Assembly (NCBI GenBank): GCA_015056175.1
Contig: SVGT01000007.1
Span: 1-64,000 of the forward strand
Origin: Clostridiales bacterium
GTDB lineage: Bacteria; Bacillota; Clostridia; Christensenellales; Aristaeellaceae
Reading direction: 5' to 3'
Length of the DNA: 64,000 bases
Shown here: one piece after another, positions 7,483 to 15,888 of the stretch
Position numbering within the stretch: position 1 is the first letter of the stretch
Layout: every line of letters starts with the position of its first letter
Translations under genes and position numbers: made by a program
The notes under the pieces: generated by a model
Seen by the model: the letters and a program-made list of their open reading frames with translations, nothing else
Told to the model about the DNA's origin: nothing
The model's database searches: none

Positions 7483-8469
7483 ATGAAGTCAAAGGACCCA
7501 GGCCGCGGATATTCCGCCCATTCCTCCCGGCGCAGAGCCAAGCGCACCTACAGAACGCCCCTACCCGGCAGGCACGTTGTGTTTCTTGTGCTTCTTTTTA
7601 TCTTTTCCGGGCTGCTCGCCTACGGCTCCATCCGTCTTTTTACCTATATTAGAGAAGCTCAGCAGGCCCGTCAGGTGGCGGACGCCATACGCCAGGCATA
7701 TTATGCGGTCACCGACGCACCGGCGCAGACGGCCGCGCTGCCTGCCTCCACCGAAACGGCTGCGCCCGCTCCTGCCGCAGATATCCCTGCCCCCACCACC
7801 AATCCAGATCTCCTGCCCGCACGGGGCTATCCCGGCAATCCCTACACCATCGTCACCTCCCGCTTCCGCGAAATCCAGAAGCTCAATGACGATATTATCG
7901 GCTGGCTTTCTGCCGATGATCTGATCGATCAGGCCGTGGTGCAGCGGGATAACGCCTACTATCTGGACCGGGATTATCTGGGCAATCAAAACAGCAACGG
8001 CGCTATCTTCCTGGATGAGCACTGCGATCTTTCCACCCGCCCCTACACCTACCTGCTCTACGGGCACAACATGAAAACAGGCACCATGTTCGGCAGCCTG
8101 CGCAATTACGAAAACGTTACCTATCTCACCTCCTACCCCTTCATCACCTTTGATACCGCCTACGAAACAGGCCGCTACGCAGTCTTTGCCGCCGGCACCG
8201 TCAGCACCGATAAAAGCAGCTGGCAGTATCTGGACCTGACCCGTCTGTGCTCGCCCCTTGCCTCGCTTCGCAGCCAGGCCATCCGCCGCCTGAAGGAGCT
8301 TTCCGTGTTCGATTGTCCCCTGGACGTGCGCCCGGACGATCAGCTTTTGCTGCTCATCACCTGCGTGGAAGATGACAGCGACCGCCGTGTGGTAGCCGCC
8401 CGCCGCATCCGCAATAACGAAAGCGATGCATCCCTTTTGGACGTGATTTCTCATACACACGTAAAATAA
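7483..8469 (+). CDS. srtB: Class B sortase
   Basis: The start at 7483 follows AAAGGAG. The 328-residue protein has a basic cytoplasmic N-terminus, one membrane helix (about 31-53), an Ala/Pro/Thr-rich spacer (75-115), then a sortase fold. The catalytic His is in LLYGHNMKTG (H195), Cys in LLLITC (C294), and Arg in DSDRRVVAARR (about R301/302). GHNM and the long insert between His and Cys fit class B. Sortase B cleaves NPxTG- or (S/P)PxTG-type signals and links proteins to the cell wall. The pilin-like protein at 14049 ends in PPDTG, making it the obvious substrate; the adjacent matrix cluster supports this. Confidence 0.92.
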   Translation: MKSKDPGRGYSAHSSRRRAKRTYRTPLPGRHVVFLVLLFIFSGLLAYGSIRLFTYIREAQQARQVADAIRQAYYAVTDAPAQTAALPASTETAAPAPAADIPAPTTNPDLLPARGYPGNPYTIVTSRFREIQKLNDDIIGWLSADDLIDQAVVQRDNAYYLDRDYLGNQNSNGAIFLDEHCDLSTRPYTYLLYGHNMKTGTMFGSLRNYENVTYLTSYPFITFDTAYETGRYAVFAAGTVSTDKSSWQYLDLTRLCSPLASLRSQAIRRLKELSVFDCPLDVRPDDQLLLLITCVEDDSDRRVVAARRIRNNESDASLLDVISHTHVK

Positions 8470-8723: not shown

Positions 8724-9404
8724 ATGAAGAAGAAGTCCCTGATCATGCTGATCTGCGCCGTCCTGGTTCTCACCAGCGCCGCGTTCGGCACCATCGCCTA
8801 CCTGACCGCTCAGGAAGACGTCACCAACACCTTCACCATGGGCGATGTGGACATCACCGTGGATGAAACCGAAGTGGATGAAGACGGCAATCCCGTGCTG
8901 GACGAAGACGACAACAACAAGCGCACCGACGAAGGCAACGAATACCGTCTGGTGCCCGGCAAGGTCTACACCAAGGACCCCACCCTCACCATCAAGGCTA
9001 ACAGCGAAGACTGCTATGCCCGTCTGCTGGTGACCTACAACAACGCTTCCGAGCTGGATGCCATCTTCCCCGCTGTGGACGGCGTCAAGCCCGTATACCT
9101 GGTCAAGGACCTGAACACCGAAAGCTGGGTGCGCGGTGAAGATATCGCGGATACCGCCGCCAACACCATCACCTTCGTGTTCACCTACAAGAACCAGGAC
9201 GGCACCGATATCGCTTCCACCGGCGAAACCGACAACGTGCTGCCCGCCCTGTTCACCCAGATCGAAGTGCCTGCCGCCCTCACCGGCGAACAGCTGGAAA
9301 CGCTGGAAGGCCTGGAGATCAACGCCAAGGGTCAGGCCATCCAGGCTTACTCCTTCGAAACTGCTGCCGACGCCTGGGCTCAGTTCGAAAGCCAGAATCC
9401 CTGA
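8724..9404 (+). CDS. TasA/CalY-like matrix protein with SipW-type signal
   Basis: The ATG at 8724 follows a GGAGAG ribosome site; the track start is 16 codons too early. The 226-residue product opens with a signal of the SipW-cognate type: hydrophobic core, then GTIAYLTAQEDVTNTFTMGD. The rest is an acidic beta-rich domain (LVPGKVYTKDPTLTI...CYARLLVTYNN) of the TasA/camelysin family. Members are secreted and assemble into fibres of the biofilm matrix. It is the first gene of the locus and probably the main fibre subunit. Confidence 0.82.
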   Translation: MKKKSLIMLICAVLVLTSAAFGTIAYLTAQEDVTNTFTMGDVDITVDETEVDEDGNPVLDEDDNNKRTDEGNEYRLVPGKVYTKDPTLTIKANSEDCYARLLVTYNNASELDAIFPAVDGVKPVYLVKDLNTESWVRGEDIADTAANTITFVFTYKNQDGTDIASTGETDNVLPALFTQIEVPAALTGEQLETLEGLEINAKGQAIQAYSFETAADAWAQFESQNP

Positions 9405-9471
9405 TTCACCCGTCACTTCTCAGATCTTGATGATCTGACATCATAACCCCATTCAGGCAGAGAGGGCATTT

Positions 9472-10080
9472 ATGATTTTCAGCAGATTGAAGAGGAACAC
9501 GGCCACCTCCGTGCTCAAAACCCGGTCGCTGCTGCTGATGATGGCATGCGTCATCGTGCTTGGCAGCACTTTCGGGGGCACCGTGGCTTTGCTGATGGGC
9601 GAAACCGCTCCCGTCACCAACGTGTTCTCCCCCACCGATATCAACATCACCCTGTCCGAAACGGACACCGATGACGGTGATGACGATGCCAACACCAACA
9701 CCTACGAACTGCTCCCCGGCGCCACCATCACCAAGGACCCCGTGGTCACGGTGCTCTCCGGCAGCGAGGATGCATGGGTGTTTGTTGTGCTGCAGAAATC
9801 CGAAAACTTTGACGATTTCCTCACCTACGAGGTCGCCGAAGGCTGGACGGCGCTGGACAATGTACCCGGCGTCTATTTCCGCACCGTTCCCGCTTCGGAA
9901 ACGGACGTATCCTTCAGCGTCCTTCAGGATGATACCGTCTCCGTTCTGCCCTCCGTTACTTCGCTCATGCTCAATGCGCTCACCCAGGAGACCTTCCCCA
10001 CGCTGACGGTATCTGCCTGCGCCGTACAGATGGAAGGCATTGCGCTCCCGGGCGACGCCTTTGCGCTGATCGCGGAGTAA
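9472..10080 (+). CDS. Second SipW-type secreted protein, divergent TasA-like
   Basis: The 202-residue protein has a basic start, a hydrophobic core and a SipW-like motif (GTVALLMGETAPVTNVFSPTD). A compact beta domain follows, with the family phrase LLPGATITKDPVVTV, matching LVPGKVYTKDPTLTI in the previous protein. It is shorter and more divergent than its neighbour and may be a minor or capping subunit. It lies 67 bp downstream in the same direction; a CAGATC / GATCTG hairpin sits in the gap. GAGAGG precedes ATG. Confidence 0.72.
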   Translation: MIFSRLKRNTATSVLKTRSLLLMMACVIVLGSTFGGTVALLMGETAPVTNVFSPTDINITLSETDTDDGDDDANTNTYELLPGATITKDPVVTVLSGSEDAWVFVVLQKSENFDDFLTYEVAEGWTALDNVPGVYFRTVPASETDVSFSVLQDDTVSVLPSVTSLMLNALTQETFPTLTVSACAVQMEGIALPGDAFALIAE

Positions 10081-10146
10081 ACCCACCCGGTGTAAACGGC
10101 AGCAGCCGTTCACATAGCGTATCAGTAAGAAAGGAAGGAAACACCC

Positions 10147-11475
10147 ATGAAAATGAACCGCAAGCTGGTTCTCATCCTTGCTCTCGTGCTGAGCGTAGCC
10201 GTCGCCACTACCGGCACTCTGGCTTACCTCACCGACCACGAAACCGAAACCAACGTGTTCACCGTTGGCAATGTTGACATCGACCTGACCGAAGACTTCG
10301 AGCAGGGCGCCACCCTGGTGCCCGGCACCAAGATCACCAAGGTTCCCGTCATCACCAACACCGGCAAGACCGACGCCTGGGTGTGGATGACCGTAGCCAT
10401 CCCCGCCGGCATGGAAGATGAAAGCGGCGATGCCTCCAAGAACCTGCTCCACTGGAACTGGATGGCCGGCACCGACGCCCGCCACATGAACAGCAAGGGT
10501 CAGGATTCCATCGATACCTACATCGATAACGAATGGCTGCCCGAAGGCACCACCATCGAGCAGGTTCGCGCCGGCGATAACTGGACCGTGGATGAAAAGA
10601 CCCCCATCGCCGTGCAGACCATCGACGGCGTTGCCTACAATGTGTACCTCTTCAAGTACAACACCGTCCTGGTGCCCGGCGAAACCACCCTGGGCTCCTT
10701 CTGCCAGGTGTACATGGACACCCGTGTGGATATCGCTCCCGACGGCGAACTGTACTGGGTGGAAAACGGCAATGCCAAAAAGCTGAACTACAACATCAAC
10801 ACCATGGGCAATCCCAAGATCTTCGTGGCTGCCTACGGCATGCAGGCCAACGGCTTTGACACCGTGGATGCTGCCTACAAGGCCTACGGCGAGCAGTGGG
10901 GCGATGACAACAACGCCGATTACAACCTGCCCATCGTTGCCGCTCCCACAGCGGGCTCTACCCGTCCTGCCGGTTACATCCCCTCCACCGAGGGCGGTGT
11001 GCTGGATAACCTCATCGTGCTGGATGACTCCACCGCCGACGATAACCTGCGCGCCATGTACAACGGCGAAGGCGGTGCTTCCAACTACCTGACCGAGGAT
11101 CTGATCATCAACAACTCCTACCTGGACGGCACCTACGCCATCAACCTCTACGCTGTGGAAGCGGAGAACGTGAACCTCATCGCCAACAAGACCACCTTCG
11201 CAGGCTGGTCCAGCTACACCGGCTTTGACAGCGTCACCTTCACCGATTGCACCTTCCGCGAGAACAGCAATCACGAGATCTGGAACGTGGTGCGTCCCTA
11301 TGACGATACCACCTTCGTCAACTGCGAATTCCATGGCACCCAGCTGTTCCTGGACAAGCTGGCCGGCGCTACCGTGACCATGGAAAACTGCACCTTTGAC
11401 GGCGAGCCCATCACCGCCGCCATCCTGGCCGAAATGGTCACCGAGGGCAGCACTTCCAGCGTGACCCTCAAGTAA
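10147..11475 (+). CDS. SipW-type secreted protein: TasA-like domain plus beta-helix-like C-terminus
   Basis: The 442-residue product begins with a clear SipW signal (GTLAYLTDHETETNVFTVGN), then a TasA-like domain (LVPGTKITKVPVI, DAWVWMTVAIP) to about residue 240. The C-terminal 150 residues have repeated short strands ending in N-C-T-F or D-C-T-F (FTDCTFREN, FVNCEFHG, MENCTFDG), typical of a right-handed parallel beta-helix. This suggests a fibre protein carrying an adhesive or carbohydrate-facing tip. AAGGAAGG precedes ATG. The adjacent gene at 11653 has the same two-part layout. Confidence 0.75.
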   Translation: MKMNRKLVLILALVLSVAVATTGTLAYLTDHETETNVFTVGNVDIDLTEDFEQGATLVPGTKITKVPVITNTGKTDAWVWMTVAIPAGMEDESGDASKNLLHWNWMAGTDARHMNSKGQDSIDTYIDNEWLPEGTTIEQVRAGDNWTVDEKTPIAVQTIDGVAYNVYLFKYNTVLVPGETTLGSFCQVYMDTRVDIAPDGELYWVENGNAKKLNYNINTMGNPKIFVAAYGMQANGFDTVDAAYKAYGEQWGDDNNADYNLPIVAAPTAGSTRPAGYIPSTEGGVLDNLIVLDDSTADDNLRAMYNGEGGASNYLTEDLIINNSYLDGTYAINLYAVEAENVNLIANKTTFAGWSSYTGFDSVTFTDCTFRENSNHEIWNVVRPYDDTTFVNCEFHGTQLFLDKLAGATVTMENCTFDGEPITAAILAEMVTEGSTSSVTLK

Positions 11476-11498
11476 TCCCCTCAGTATCTTTTCCCTGC

Positions 11499-11593
11499 GC
11501 CGCCTCCCCGAGAGGCGGCCGGGGATGGAGATAAAACTGCGCGCGCGGCGTAATACAGCACAGCCGCACCGTATGTAACCCCGGTTGTGCTGT
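11499..11593 (+). other. Two intercistronic hairpins
   Basis: GCCGCCT / AGGCGGC (11499-11519) and the longer ACAGCACAGCC / GGTTGTGCTGT (11555-11593, one G-T pair). Neither has a T tail, so processing or mRNA-stability elements are more likely than terminators. Confidence 0.5.
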
Positions 11594-11652
11594 GTTGCGC
11601 GGTAAACGCAACGGACACCCTACTCTATACTATGCACAAGGAGACGAATGGA

Positions 11653-13197
11653 ATGAAAAAGTCTACTCTTCTCACCATCGTTGCGCTGGTTCTGGCGCTG
11701 GCGATGGGCGTCAGCGGCACCATGGCTTACCTGCAGGACACCGACGACGACGTGAACGTGATGACCCTGGGCAACGTGGACATCGAGCAGATCGAGCTCG
11801 AGCGCGATGAAGAAGGCAATCTGCAGAACTTCACCCAGAACAAGGATATGTATCCTGCCGTGGGTACCTACGCTTGGGATCCCGAGCTGGTTTACTGGCC
11901 CGATGTGAGCGCTACCGCTTCTTCCCCCGTGTTTGACGATGAAAAGCTGGCCAACGTGGTCGACAAGTTCGTGTTTGTGGAAAACACCGGCAAGTCCGAT
12001 GCGTATGTCCGCACCATCTTCGCTTTCGAAGTCGGCGAATACGATTTTAACACCGTGATCGGCCATGAAACTTCCCCCCTGGTCCATATCAACAACAATG
12101 ACAAGAATACCAGTGAAACCGAAAAGGTCCACTGGGATTTTACCTGGTTTGAAACCCCTGTGACCATCGACGGCAACAAGTACGTGCTGGCTGAAGCGCT
12201 GTACCTGGGCGCCAACAGCAAGCAGGGCACTCCTGAAGAAGGTATCCTGGTTCCCGGCGCTACCTCCTATCCCAGCCTGCTGCAGCTGTTCCTTGATCCC
12301 TCCGCCACCAACGAAGACATGGTGAAGCTGGATGGCAACGCCAACGGCACCTATGACGTGCTGGTCGTTTCCCAGGCTGTGCAGACCGCCGGTTTTGCCG
12401 ATGCCAAAACCGCTCTGAACACCGCCTTCGGCACCACCTCTGCCACTTGCCATCCCTGGATGGCCGAAGCTGACAATGGCCAGCCCCCCTACATCGAATC
12501 CCCCGTGTTCCCCGGCATGGTGACCAACAACGAAGAACTGGCTGCCGCTATCGCTAACGGCGAAACCGAGATCAAGCTGGCTGCCGGTGAATACAACATC
12601 CCCGCCGCTGCGAAGGGCAAGACCCTCACGCTGACCGGCGTGTCCCCCGAAAAGACCACCATCACTGTTGTTCCCGCCGGTCAGGGCGAAGCCAACGGCC
12701 AGCTGGACTACAACCTGGACGGCTCCACCGTCACCTTCAATGACCTGACCATCAAGACCAACAGCCAGCTGTATGCCGGTTACGCCCGTCTGAGCGCCGA
12801 CTACAACAACTGCGTGATCCAGAACACCTATAACCTGGGTGCCAACTCTGACAACACCTTCACCAACTGCACCATCAACATCTCCAACGAATATCTGCGT
12901 GTGAACGGCGCCGCCAAGGCCACTTTTGACAAGTGCACCTTCAACACCGACGGCCGCGCGATTCTGGTTTACCAGGACGGCAGCAATATTCATCAGGAAG
13001 TGACCGTGAAGGATTGCACCTTTAACGCCACCGCTCCCGCCAAGACCTGGAACGGCATCCACGTTGCCGCTGTGTCCATCGACGGCACCAACGGCACCTA
13101 CACCGTGAACCTGGAAGGCACCAACACCGTCGACGCCGACTTCAACGGCCTCTGGCAGATCAAGACCGGCGACGCCAACGTGACTGTGAACGAATAA
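11653..13197 (+). CDS. Large SipW-type secreted protein with beta-helix-like C-terminus
   Basis: The start at 11653 follows AAGGAGACG; the track ORF begins 22 codons early. The 514-residue product has the SipW signal GTMAYLQDTDDDVNVMTLGN and a matrix domain to about residue 290. That domain holds KFVFVENTGKSDAYVRTIF, also found in shortened form in the protein at 13313. The C-terminal 220 residues repeat NCTI-, KCTF- and DCTF-type turns (FTNCTINIS, FDKCTFNTD, VKDCTFNAT), again pointing to a parallel beta-helix. It is the largest surface protein of the locus, and structural or adhesive function is inferred. Confidence 0.75.
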   Translation: MKKSTLLTIVALVLALAMGVSGTMAYLQDTDDDVNVMTLGNVDIEQIELERDEEGNLQNFTQNKDMYPAVGTYAWDPELVYWPDVSATASSPVFDDEKLANVVDKFVFVENTGKSDAYVRTIFAFEVGEYDFNTVIGHETSPLVHINNNDKNTSETEKVHWDFTWFETPVTIDGNKYVLAEALYLGANSKQGTPEEGILVPGATSYPSLLQLFLDPSATNEDMVKLDGNANGTYDVLVVSQAVQTAGFADAKTALNTAFGTTSATCHPWMAEADNGQPPYIESPVFPGMVTNNEELAAAIANGETEIKLAAGEYNIPAAAKGKTLTLTGVSPEKTTITVVPAGQGEANGQLDYNLDGSTVTFNDLTIKTNSQLYAGYARLSADYNNCVIQNTYNLGANSDNTFTNCTINISNEYLRVNGAAKATFDKCTFNTDGRAILVYQDGSNIHQEVTVKDCTFNATAPAKTWNGIHVAAVSIDGTNGTYTVNLEGTNTVDADFNGLWQIKTGDANVTVNE

Positions 13198-13215
13198 TCA
13201 TTCTCAAGCAATTCA

Positions 13216-13277
13216 CCGTCCACCCCTTCGGGGGTGGGCGGCGATCAAAGGGCATGGTATCCACGCCCTTTGATCGC
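13216..13277 (+). other. Tandem strong hairpins between matrix genes
   Basis: Hairpin 1 is CCGTCCACCCC-TTCG-GGGGTGGGCGG, an 11-bp stem with a stable UUCG tetraloop. Hairpin 2 is GCGATCAAAGGGC / GCCCTTTGATCGC, a perfect 13-bp stem with an 11-base loop. There is no T run after either. They probably protect the 3' end of the upstream mRNA or lower expression of the downstream gene. Confidence 0.7.
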
Positions 13278-13312
13278 CGCAGGTCAAGGCATTGTGAAAG
13301 GCAGGTCATCCT

Positions 13313-14020
13313 GTGAAAAAACGTCCCCTGCTGATCCTGTGTCTGCTGTTGTCCCTGCTGCTCCTGCTCAAAGGCAATGCGCTGTGGCAGCACGCCTCCG
13401 TGGCTTTTGCACAGCTGAAATCCTGCCTCGCCCCCGCTGCTCCCCAGACGCTGAAAGCGGACAGCCGTTTTCTGATCCGGGACGGCATGGGCGGCCTGAC
13501 AAGCGAACGCAGCACCCATCTGGACGCCGCCGCCTATCCCGACAGCTTTGATTTTATGCCCACCGTGCCCTGCACGCTGGACGGACATAAATACTTGCTT
13601 TGGGATGAGCAGGTACTGAAGGGATCTACGGACAAATTCCTGGTGGTGGAAAATCAGGGCGATATGCCCGTGTATTTCCGCACCTGCATTGCCCTGCCCG
13701 TGTGCGATATGCAGCGGTACGTGGTGTTCAACCGCAATACCGCAGACTACCGGTGGACAGATCATGTGCCCGTCACCATTGAGGGACGGAATTACGTCAT
13801 GTATCTGGCCGAATACAGACAGGCGCTACCGCCCGGTCAGTGCGCCCCGGCGTCGCTTTTGCAAATGGCGCTGCAGAAAAACGCGCCCCAGGATCAGGTG
13901 ATCACCTTTGATATCCGCGTCGTCACCCAGCTTGTCGGCGCGGAGGGCTTTGAAGGTCTCAGCGCCACAGAGGTGCTTCAGCAGACCATGCCCGTCACAG
14001 ATACATTCAACCCATTCTAA
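13313..14020 (+). CDS. Secreted paralogue of the matrix domain, without a SipW motif
   Basis: GTG start, 235 residues. A hydrophobic signal or anchor (RPLLILCLLLSLLLLLKG) opens the protein, but the GTxAYxT...N.F motif of its neighbours is absent. The body parallels the matrix domain of the 11653 protein: KFLVVENQGDMPVYFRT against KFVFVENTGKSDAYVRT, and VPVTIEGRNYVMYLAEY against TPVTIDGNKYVLAEALY. It is therefore a shortened relative that may stay membrane-anchored or use the general signal peptidase. A TapA-like assembly or minor-subunit role is a guess. The pilin gene starts 28 bp downstream. Confidence 0.68.
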   Translation: MKKRPLLILCLLLSLLLLLKGNALWQHASVAFAQLKSCLAPAAPQTLKADSRFLIRDGMGGLTSERSTHLDAAAYPDSFDFMPTVPCTLDGHKYLLWDEQVLKGSTDKFLVVENQGDMPVYFRTCIALPVCDMQRYVVFNRNTADYRWTDHVPVTIEGRNYVMYLAEYRQALPPGQCAPASLLQMALQKNAPQDQVITFDIRVVTQLVGAEGFEGLSATEVLQQTMPVTDTFNPF

Positions 14021-14048
14021 ACTGACATTCAGAAAGGAGCGGTGCAGC

Positions 14049-14684
14049 ATGATTTTCCGCCGTCCGTTTGCCCGGCTGGCGCTGATTGTAGCCGCAGTGC
14101 TCATTGCAGCTGTTGCCGTACCCGCCACGATTTCCTATATCGCCGTGCGTACGGATCCCATCGTGAACACCTTTGAGCCGGATTACACCCAGACCGCCGA
14201 CGCCGTGGTGGACGTGCACATTGTGAAAACCGTCACCAATCTGGCAGAGCCGCCTGTCGGCCCCGAAAATTTCCAGTTCCTGCTCACCCGCACGGATACG
14301 GAAAAGGCCATCAAGCTCACCTCCGGCAGCGACGGACGCGCCTTTGGCATGCTCACCTTCTCCAAGGAGGAGGCCGGCAAAACCTATACCTACCGTCTGA
14401 CCGAGGTGAACGATGCGCGCGAGCACATCCTGTATGACGAGACGGAGCACATCGTCACCGTGACGCTGAAATTGAACGATGACGCCACGCTGACCCCCAC
14501 CGTCACGCTGGACGGCCTGAAGGTGGACAAGGTGGAGGTCACCTTTACCAACATCCACACCACCGAGATCCTGCCCCCCGATACCGGCGATGACGCACAG
14601 CCCCTGCTCTACATCTGCATGGTGCTGCTGGGCGTCGCAGGACTTGCTGCACTGGTCATCACCGCAAAGAAACGCACCGCATAA
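14049..14684 (+). CDS. Isopeptide pilin-domain protein with PPDTG sorting signal
   Basis: ATG at 14049 follows AAAGGAG. The 211-residue protein has an N-terminal hydrophobic segment ending in a SipW-like pattern (ATISYIAVRTDPIVNTFEPD). A Spy0128/FctA-type pilin domain follows (about 52-172). The expected Lys (IVK, K60), Glu (RLTEV, E119) and Asn (TFTN, N168) are in place to form an internal isopeptide bond. The C-terminus is a sorting signal: PPDTG (176-180), a hydrophobic helix, then KKRTA. PPDTG fits the (S/P)PxTG pattern used by sortase B of Clostridioides difficile, and a class B sortase gene lies at 7483. It is probably the wall anchor or base of the fibre. Confidence 0.85.
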   Translation: MIFRRPFARLALIVAAVLIAAVAVPATISYIAVRTDPIVNTFEPDYTQTADAVVDVHIVKTVTNLAEPPVGPENFQFLLTRTDTEKAIKLTSGSDGRAFGMLTFSKEEAGKTYTYRLTEVNDAREHILYDETEHIVTVTLKLNDDATLTPTVTLDGLKVDKVEVTFTNIHTTEILPPDTGDDAQPLLYICMVLLGVAGLAALVITAKKRTA

Positions 14685-14693
14685 ACCCATTCA

Positions 14694-14719
14694 CGCTCCG
14701 CCAATCGCGGAGCGTTTTT
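14694..14719 (+). terminator. Terminator at the end of the matrix/pilin operon
   Basis: CGCTCCGC / GCGGAGCG stem followed by TTTTT. Confidence 0.9.
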
Positions 14720-14740: not shown

Positions 14741-14770
14741 TTGCCATCATGCCGCCTCTTATGGTATCAT
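14741..14770 (+). promoter_or_regulatory. Separate promoter of sipW
   Basis: TTGCCA (14741-14746), an 18-bp spacer and TATCAT (14765-14770). The peptidase therefore has its own transcription unit. Confidence 0.65.
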
Positions 14771-14832: not shown

Positions 14833-15888
14833 ATGAAACAGCCAATCGCCAAACTGCTCCGCGGCCTGTCCACCATCCTGGTGATCTTTGCCATCATCAT
14901 CGCCTTCCTGATCTCCGGCATGCGCATTTTCGGTTTTCAGGTGTACGGCGTGCTGACCGGCTCCATGGAACCCACCTATCCCGTGGGATCGCTGATCTAC
15001 GTCAAGGATGTGGACGCCAATACCCTGCGCGTCAACGACGTGATCACCTTCAGCCTGTCCCCCAATGTGGTGGCTACCCACCGCATCGTGGAGCTGGTGC
15101 CCGATGAAGCCAACCCCGCCGTGACCCTGTTCCGCACCAAGGGCGACGCCAACGACGATGTGGACGCATCGCTGGTGGGCGAACGCAACATCATCGGCAA
15201 GGTCAGCTTCTGCGTGCCCATGCTGGGCTACATGGCCAGCTACATCCAGGAGCCTCCGGGAATCTATGTGGCCATCATCGTGTGCCTGCTGATGATCGGC
15301 TTTGTGGTTTATACCGATTCCCTGACCGGCGAAAAGCCCCGGAAAAATCAGCCCGCTCAGGCACAGAAGAAGCCTGCTTTCGATTTTGTGGCCGCCGTCA
15401 ACAAGCTGTCCGTCAAGCTGATGGGCAAGCCGCTGATCAGGCAAAAGCCCCAGCAGCAGCCCAGGCAGGGCTACCAGCCTCAGCAGCAGCCTTACCAGTA
15501 TCAGCAGCAGTACAACCCCCAGGCGCAGCAGCCCTACGGATATCAGCAGCAGCCTTACCAGTATCCCCAGCAGCAGTACAATCCCCAGGCACAGCAGCAG
15601 CCCTACGGATATCCCCAGCAGCCTTACCAGTACCCCCAGCAGCAGTACAATCCCCAGACACAGCAGCAGCCCTACGGCTATCCCCAGCAGCCTTACCAGT
15701 ACCCCCAGCAGCCCTACAATCCCCAGGCACAGCAGCAGCCCTACGGCTATCAGCAGCAGCCTTATCAGTACCCCCAACAGCAGTACAATCCGCAGGCGCA
15801 GCAGCAGCCCTACCAATATCCCCAGCAGCCCTACAATTATCCGCAGCAGGGTGTGCAGCACCCTTCGAACAATCAGAATCAACAGTAA
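14833..15888 (+). CDS. sipW: SipW-type signal peptidase I with Gln/Pro/Tyr-rich repeat tail
   Basis: Residues 1-165 are a signal peptidase of the ER/SipW type: membrane helix (12-30), catalytic Ser in TGSMEPT (S44), His instead of Lys in VVATHRIVE (H83), the RTKGDAND box (about 101-108), and a second membrane helix (about 142-160). Such enzymes process TasA-like precursors, and at least four lie just upstream. The unusual part is residues about 204-351, almost only Gln, Pro, Tyr, Asn, Gly and Ala, in 23-residue repeats (QQQPYGYPQQPYQYPQQ). After a two-helix membrane domain with an outward-facing active site, this tail should lie in the cytoplasm; the topology is inferred. Its function is unknown. 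Confidence 0.92.
   Translation: MKQPIAKLLRGLSTILVIFAIIIAFLISGMRIFGFQVYGVLTGSMEPTYPVGSLIYVKDVDANTLRVNDVITFSLSPNVVATHRIVELVPDEANPAVTLFRTKGDANDDVDASLVGERNIIGKVSFCVPMLGYMASYIQEPPGIYVAIIVCLLMIGFVVYTDSLTGEKPRKNQPAQAQKKPAFDFVAAVNKLSVKLMGKPLIRQKPQQQPRQGYQPQQQPYQYQQQYNPQAQQPYGYQQQPYQYPQQQYNPQAQQQPYGYPQQPYQYPQQQYNPQTQQQPYGYPQQPYQYPQQPYNPQAQQQPYGYQQQPYQYPQQQYNPQAQQQPYQYPQQPYNYPQQGVQHPSNNQNQQ
15478..15855 (+). repeat. 69-bp tandem repeat within sipW
   Basis: The marker CCCTACGG recurs at 15532, 15601, 15670 and 15739, and as CCCTACCA at 15808, an exact 69-bp (23-codon) period. Units are near-identical with synonymous changes, so copy number may vary between strains. Confidence 0.9.

Follow-up and report, generated by a model that had tools for sequence, protein, structure and literature searches.

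An FctA-domain protein with a SipW/TasA-type N-terminus and a PPDTG sorting signal, a candidate wall anchor of a TasA-like fibre in Clostridia

The window analysed here (64,000 nucleotides, positions 1 to 64,000 of contig SVGT01000007.1 of a Clostridiales bacterium, assembly GCA_015056175.1) encodes at 14049-14684 a 211-aa protein that carries a SipW/TasA-type N-terminus, an FctA/Spy0128 domain and a C-terminal PPDTG sorting signal; this gene and all other window features described below lie on the + strand. The pairing of such an N-terminus with a PPDTG signal in a single protein is well beyond chance. Judged from its sequence, the protein is in all likelihood a substrate of both SipW and sortase B, and we favour, with modest confidence and by analogy to TapA, a role as the wall anchor that starts or caps a TasA-like biofilm fibre.

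The architecture of the protein was derived from domain matches, ortholog alignment, profile searches and a structural model. Residues 1-29 (14049-14135, ending in VPATIS) form a predicted signal peptide according to the ortholog alignment, its cleavage position being placed as in TasA and TapA. Residues 30-45 (YIAVRTDPIVNTFEPD, 14136-14183) are the predicted mature N-terminal strand, which on the alignment and a split profile is a candidate donor strand. A beta-sandwich core with the isopeptide triad K60-E119-N168 occupies residues 52-170 (14202-14558; domain match, alignment and model) and is followed by the PPDTG sortase motif at residues 176-180 (14574-14588; sequence, motif scan and alignment) and by a C-terminal membrane helix with a KKR tail at residues 185-211 (14601-14681; motif scan and model). 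The coordinates and motifs given in the initial annotation proved exact, and the C-terminal PPDTG, helix and KKR are all present in the translation; PPDTGD spans residues 176-181 in the context LPPDTGDD, hydrophobic helix, KKRTA, which gives the protein all three elements of a sorting signal: an (S/P)PxTG-like motif, a hydrophobic segment and a positively charged tail. The FctA domain is recognised at residues 57-170 by Pfam PF12892 (E 1.2e-12, 49.1 bits against a cut-off of 22.1), and TIGR03786 matches at 42 bits (cut-off 31.85).

The AlphaFold2 model of the 211-aa protein has a mean pLDDT of 88.8; the core 52-170 is confident (pLDDT about 95-98) and segment 35-50 is disordered in the monomer. 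The closest solved fold is that of FctB, the basal pilin of Streptococcus pyogenes (E 1.5e-7, target TM up to 0.75), with Spy0128 next and the Spy0128 mutants E117A and N168A among the fold matches. In the model K60, E119 and N168 sit in strands 52-64, 112-119 and 162-170, respectively; among the extracellular lysines, K60 of the triad is the only one conserved across orthologs. The protein had been labelled a pilin; since FctB is the closest fold and no lysine but K60 is conserved, the term fits a basal anchor better than a polymerising shaft. Sequence and fold searches of the PDB with the 211-aa protein return pilins and not TapA.

The N-terminus had been said to resemble the SipW signals of the neighbouring proteins. 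The SipW signal family TIGR04088 gives no match to the window protein at E<=10 and does not appear in the family listing of any of the 20 orthologs described below; therefore a dedicated profile was built solely from the N-termini of the TasA-like neighbours at 21 loci and searched against 1524 ORFs from these loci. It matches the window protein with E = 2.7e-5. When the TasA set is left out, the first 18 matches are 18 of the 20 orthologs, followed by the co-encoded protein of the type found at 13313, and the best ORF that is neither an ortholog nor a co-encoded neighbour reaches only E = 0.44. When the profile is split in two, it is the cleavage junction and the mature strand that carry the likeness; the hydrophobic segment of the signal has no discriminating power and was dropped as evidence of likeness. 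N40 and F42 lie 11-13 residues beyond the predicted cut, at fixed spacing from it, and are invariant in 20/20 orthologs; selection therefore extends into the mature protein, and this conservation past the cut suggests that the strand is used after export.

The full-length orthologs were collected by a profile search of the 308 genomes in the GTDB family of the host. There are 20 of them, in 19 of the 308 genomes and in five genera, with 24-36% identity to the window protein. The isopeptide residues K60, E119 and N168 are retained in 19/20 and xPxTGD in 17/20; anchoring does not seem universal among the orthologs, because two have PPPAGD and one PPHTYD instead. The single sequence with PPHTYD (genome G083, loci L019/L048) has lost K60, E119 and N168 as well as PxTG, and keeps VNAF at the NxF position. 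Searches widened to the order and the class added no full-length ortholog from beyond the family, but only larger open frames that match part of the profile, so that at this sampling the architecture looks family-restricted. A related-loci search with a narrower alignment gave eight MAG loci, mostly from goat or sheep gut.

The class B sortase of the locus is encoded at 7483-8469 (TIGR03064, E 4e-32; PDB matches to sortase B). A different sortase elsewhere in the genome, which the initial annotation named as a counter-argument, was not found: this class B enzyme is the only sortase detected in the 2.0-Mb assembly, which is 90.7% complete and has a single FctA domain. A homologous class B sortase is present in every single-sortase carrier examined. 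The genome motif scan proposed earlier was performed as a DNA pattern search with inspection of the regions found, and covered PxTG followed by D or E. This pattern occurs 62 times in the genome, about as often as a reversed-pattern control (70 times); only in the protein at 14049-14684 is it followed by a hydrophobic segment and a positively charged end, which makes this the sole C-terminal PxTG[D/E] signal detected. PF00746 gives no protein over its cut-off in the genome, and it misses even the PPDTG protein itself and is therefore not useful as a negative. That sortase B of Clostridioides difficile accepts (S/P)PxTG, as the initial annotation stated, is borne out by the literature: in vitro, the enzyme cleaves the T-G bond of PPKTG and SPxTG (PMC4155245). 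At two loci (L158 and L160; G083:C30 and G180:C17) proteins of 680-760 aa combine a class B sortase domain with a cysteine-peptidase-like region (GCGPTAVAM motif) fused at the C-terminus.

Five genes of the locus lie between the sortase gene and the FctA gene. Four encode TasA-like proteins: a TasA/camelysin-like protein with a SipW signal at 8724-9404 (TIGR04088 and PF12389 over cut-off), a homologous protein with an NVF motif at 9472-10080, a third with a beta-helix-like C-terminus at 10147-11475 (TIGR04088, PF12389), and a fourth with a SipW-type signal at 11653-13197 (TIGR04088 over cut-off in the genome scan). The fifth, at 13313-14020, is on alignment and profile a TasA-related accessory protein that lacks the NxF strand motif and ends in FNPF. 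PF12389 matches 13/14 members of the protein 1 set and 10/10 of the protein 3 set, covering only the N-terminal part in the window proteins. Searches of the PDB by sequence, and by fold with a moderate model (pLDDT 77), did not return TasA for these neighbours; a TasA fold is proposed for them on their N-terminal camelysin and SipW-signal matches, and is the least secure element of the fibre model described below. Among the orthologs of the 13313-14020 protein most have a SipW-like cleavage region and the conserved FNPF end, and the NxF strand motif is lacking; a TasA-like subunit of this kind, having no donor strand, could cap a fibre.

The FctA gene is the last of the same-strand run 8724-14684. 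It is followed by a terminator-like hairpin (14693-14715) and a promoter-like site (14741-14770), both consensus matches only, and then by the gene at 14833-15888 for a signal peptidase of SipW type whose C-terminal tail is rich in Q, P and Y (NF046067, TIGR02228), which carries the Ser/His/Asp motifs and would be read from its own promoter-like site. Of the 308 family genomes, 36 encode an archaeal/SipW-type peptidase. Every carrier of the FctA protein (19/19) is among them, compared with 17/289 of the remaining genomes (Fisher p ~1e-20, kinship not corrected), and in 14 of the 19 carriers the peptidase is at the same locus as the FctA protein. The gene adjoining the FctA gene is that of SipW in five genomes (G000, G180, G978, G1031 and G1033) and that of SrtB, 13-18 bases off, in four (G114, G163, G980 and G981); in G068 and G979 SipW and SrtB are adjacent to each other and away from the FctA gene. 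Synteny of the FctA gene with the TasA-like genes is conserved.

It is proposed that these parts work together in the following way. The 211-aa protein would be exported by Sec and cut by SipW after S29, which would free YIAVRTDPIVNTFEPD, and the C-terminal helix would keep it membrane-bound. The class B sortase, on the model of C. difficile SrtB, would then cleave PPDTG at the T-G bond and attach the protein to peptidoglycan. The single FctA domain carries the residues for a K60-N168 bond aided by E119, and would be a rigid plug unable to accept a strand because it is isopeptide-locked. In TasA fibres each subunit donates its mature N-terminal strand to complete the one that follows, with F29, I32 and F39 as donor-strand contacts (PMC9674648), and TapA, with a complete Ig fold and a flexible N-terminus, only donates a strand and starts the fibre (PMC10151520). 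The free strand of the 211-aa protein may likewise insert into the first TasA-like subunit of the same operon and nucleate or tether the fibre, a TapA-like working on a sortase basal-pilin scaffold with a complete, isopeptide-lockable domain, a free strand and a wall anchor. Donation of strand 30-45 to a TasA-like subunit has in our estimate an even chance of being correct, and slightly more tentatively we suggest that a sortase-attached basal pilin with a TasA-type donor strand seeds a non-covalent donor-strand fibre.

The chief alternative is that the protein is an ordinary sortase-anchored surface protein without contact to a TasA-like fibre, in which NxF serves SipW recognition only and SipW is explained by operon position. 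In the neighbours, NxF falls within the stretch matched by the 34-position model TIGR04088 and may thus be there for the peptidase; the conserved NxF might be a part of SipW recognition and not of a donor strand. NxF, however, is invariant and sits 11-13 residues inside the mature chain, and it is suggested to be dispensable for export because the accessory protein at 13313 has a SipW-like cleavage region without it in most orthologs; together with the conserved synteny with TasA-like genes, this makes an ordinary surface protein unlikely. A finding in C. perfringens also counts against the wall anchor: neither BsaA polymers nor pellicles required the srtB gene beside sipW-bsaA (PMC7395162), and linkage alone is therefore no proof of function.

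The combination of an FctA/Spy0128 domain, a class B sortase and a signal-peptidase relative in one cluster also recalls S. pyogenes, and the protein could be imagined as a shaft pilin whose copies are linked through a lysine by the class B sortase, as in an FCT-type pilus of group A streptococci, with SipW acting in export only. This is improbable, as K60 is the sole conserved extracellular lysine, the protein has one domain only, its closest fold is the basal subunit FctB and not a shaft, and the conserved TasA-like N-terminus would be left unexplained; we rejected the reading on the missing conservation of an acceptor lysine. That a general type I signal peptidase and not SipW processes the protein, its N-terminal likeness being convergent, is less probable still. 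The absence of TIGR04088 from the families listed for any ortholog and the predicted P1 residue, Ser and not Ala in the window protein, speak for it, but the neighbour profile retrieves 18/20 orthologs and the rare SipW co-occurs in all 19 carrier genomes. We accordingly retain the wall anchor of a TasA-like fibre as the preferred reading.

Each of its modules has a known counterpart. Like TapA of B. subtilis (tapA-sipW-tasA; PMC10151520, PMC9674648), the 211-aa protein would be a SipW-linked, sub-stoichiometric partner of a TasA-type fibre, with a complete Ig-like fold and a flexible N-terminal strand resembling that of TasA; TapA, however, is built on a V-set Ig fold and lacks both a sortase signal and an isopeptide triad, where the protein described here has an FctA domain with PPxTG, and no sequence relation between the two was found. 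With the FCT pili of S. pyogenes (3klq, 3b2m) it shares the FctB fold as best match, the K/E/N isopeptide positions of Spy0128, and clustering with a class B sortase and a signal-peptidase relative, whereas that relative, SipA, is without catalytic residues and not SipW-type (PMC4049620), and the streptococcal system has neither TasA-like proteins nor an NxF N-terminal strand. In C. perfringens a class B-type srtB adjoins the SipW-dependent fibre operon sipW-bsaABCRSD; BsaA has no LPXTG-like motif, and the accessible part of the paper describes no FctA-domain substrate (PMC7395162). C. difficile offers the same motif class and a single class B sortase (PMC4155245), but the SrtB substrates known there are adhesins and hydrolases, as opposed to an FctA protein whose N-terminus is TasA-like. 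CapP of B. cereus is likewise a cell-wall-located helper of TasA/CalY filaments; it is described as sortase-independent, and it is an unrelated repeat protein (PMC13082335).

What is new is the combination of these modules in one protein. Our search of the open-access literature found no description of a SipW/TasA-type N-terminus with an FctA domain and a sorting signal, nor do the accessible parts of the C. perfringens (PMC7395162) and B. cereus (PMC13082335) papers describe such a dual protein. If the proposal is true, two Gram-positive fibre systems, donor-strand and sortase, are joined in one molecule. This small surface protein of gut Clostridia probably fastens a biofilm fibre to the cell. 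What keeps TasA-type fibres attached to cells is not well established and varies from species to species (TapA, CapP), and a protein that by its sequence is a substrate of both SipW/TasA type and sortase type makes the question of fibre anchoring testable. It would also give a role to the class B sortases beside sipW operons in Clostridia, for which the one tested case showed no fibre phenotype.

Two side observations concern SipW. In the window (15400-15888) and at loci L040, L043, L090, L155 and L156 the tail consists of 160-270 aa of Q/P/Y-rich repeats after the second membrane helix and is predicted to be cytoplasmic. Taking the best match per genome, SipW frames are 323-476 aa long in carriers of the FctA protein and mostly 133-266 aa in non-carriers, with one 418-aa frame of weaker match in G1032; the tail thus tracks the anchor system. 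The window genome also has a second set of proteins with SipW-type signals (G000:C19:4450-12857, L049), including a 1863-aa protein with an intein/Hedgehog-like C-terminal region (CVAPETLVTLADGSKKEI..), and despite this second set the SipW peptidase of the window is the only one over cut-off in the assembly.
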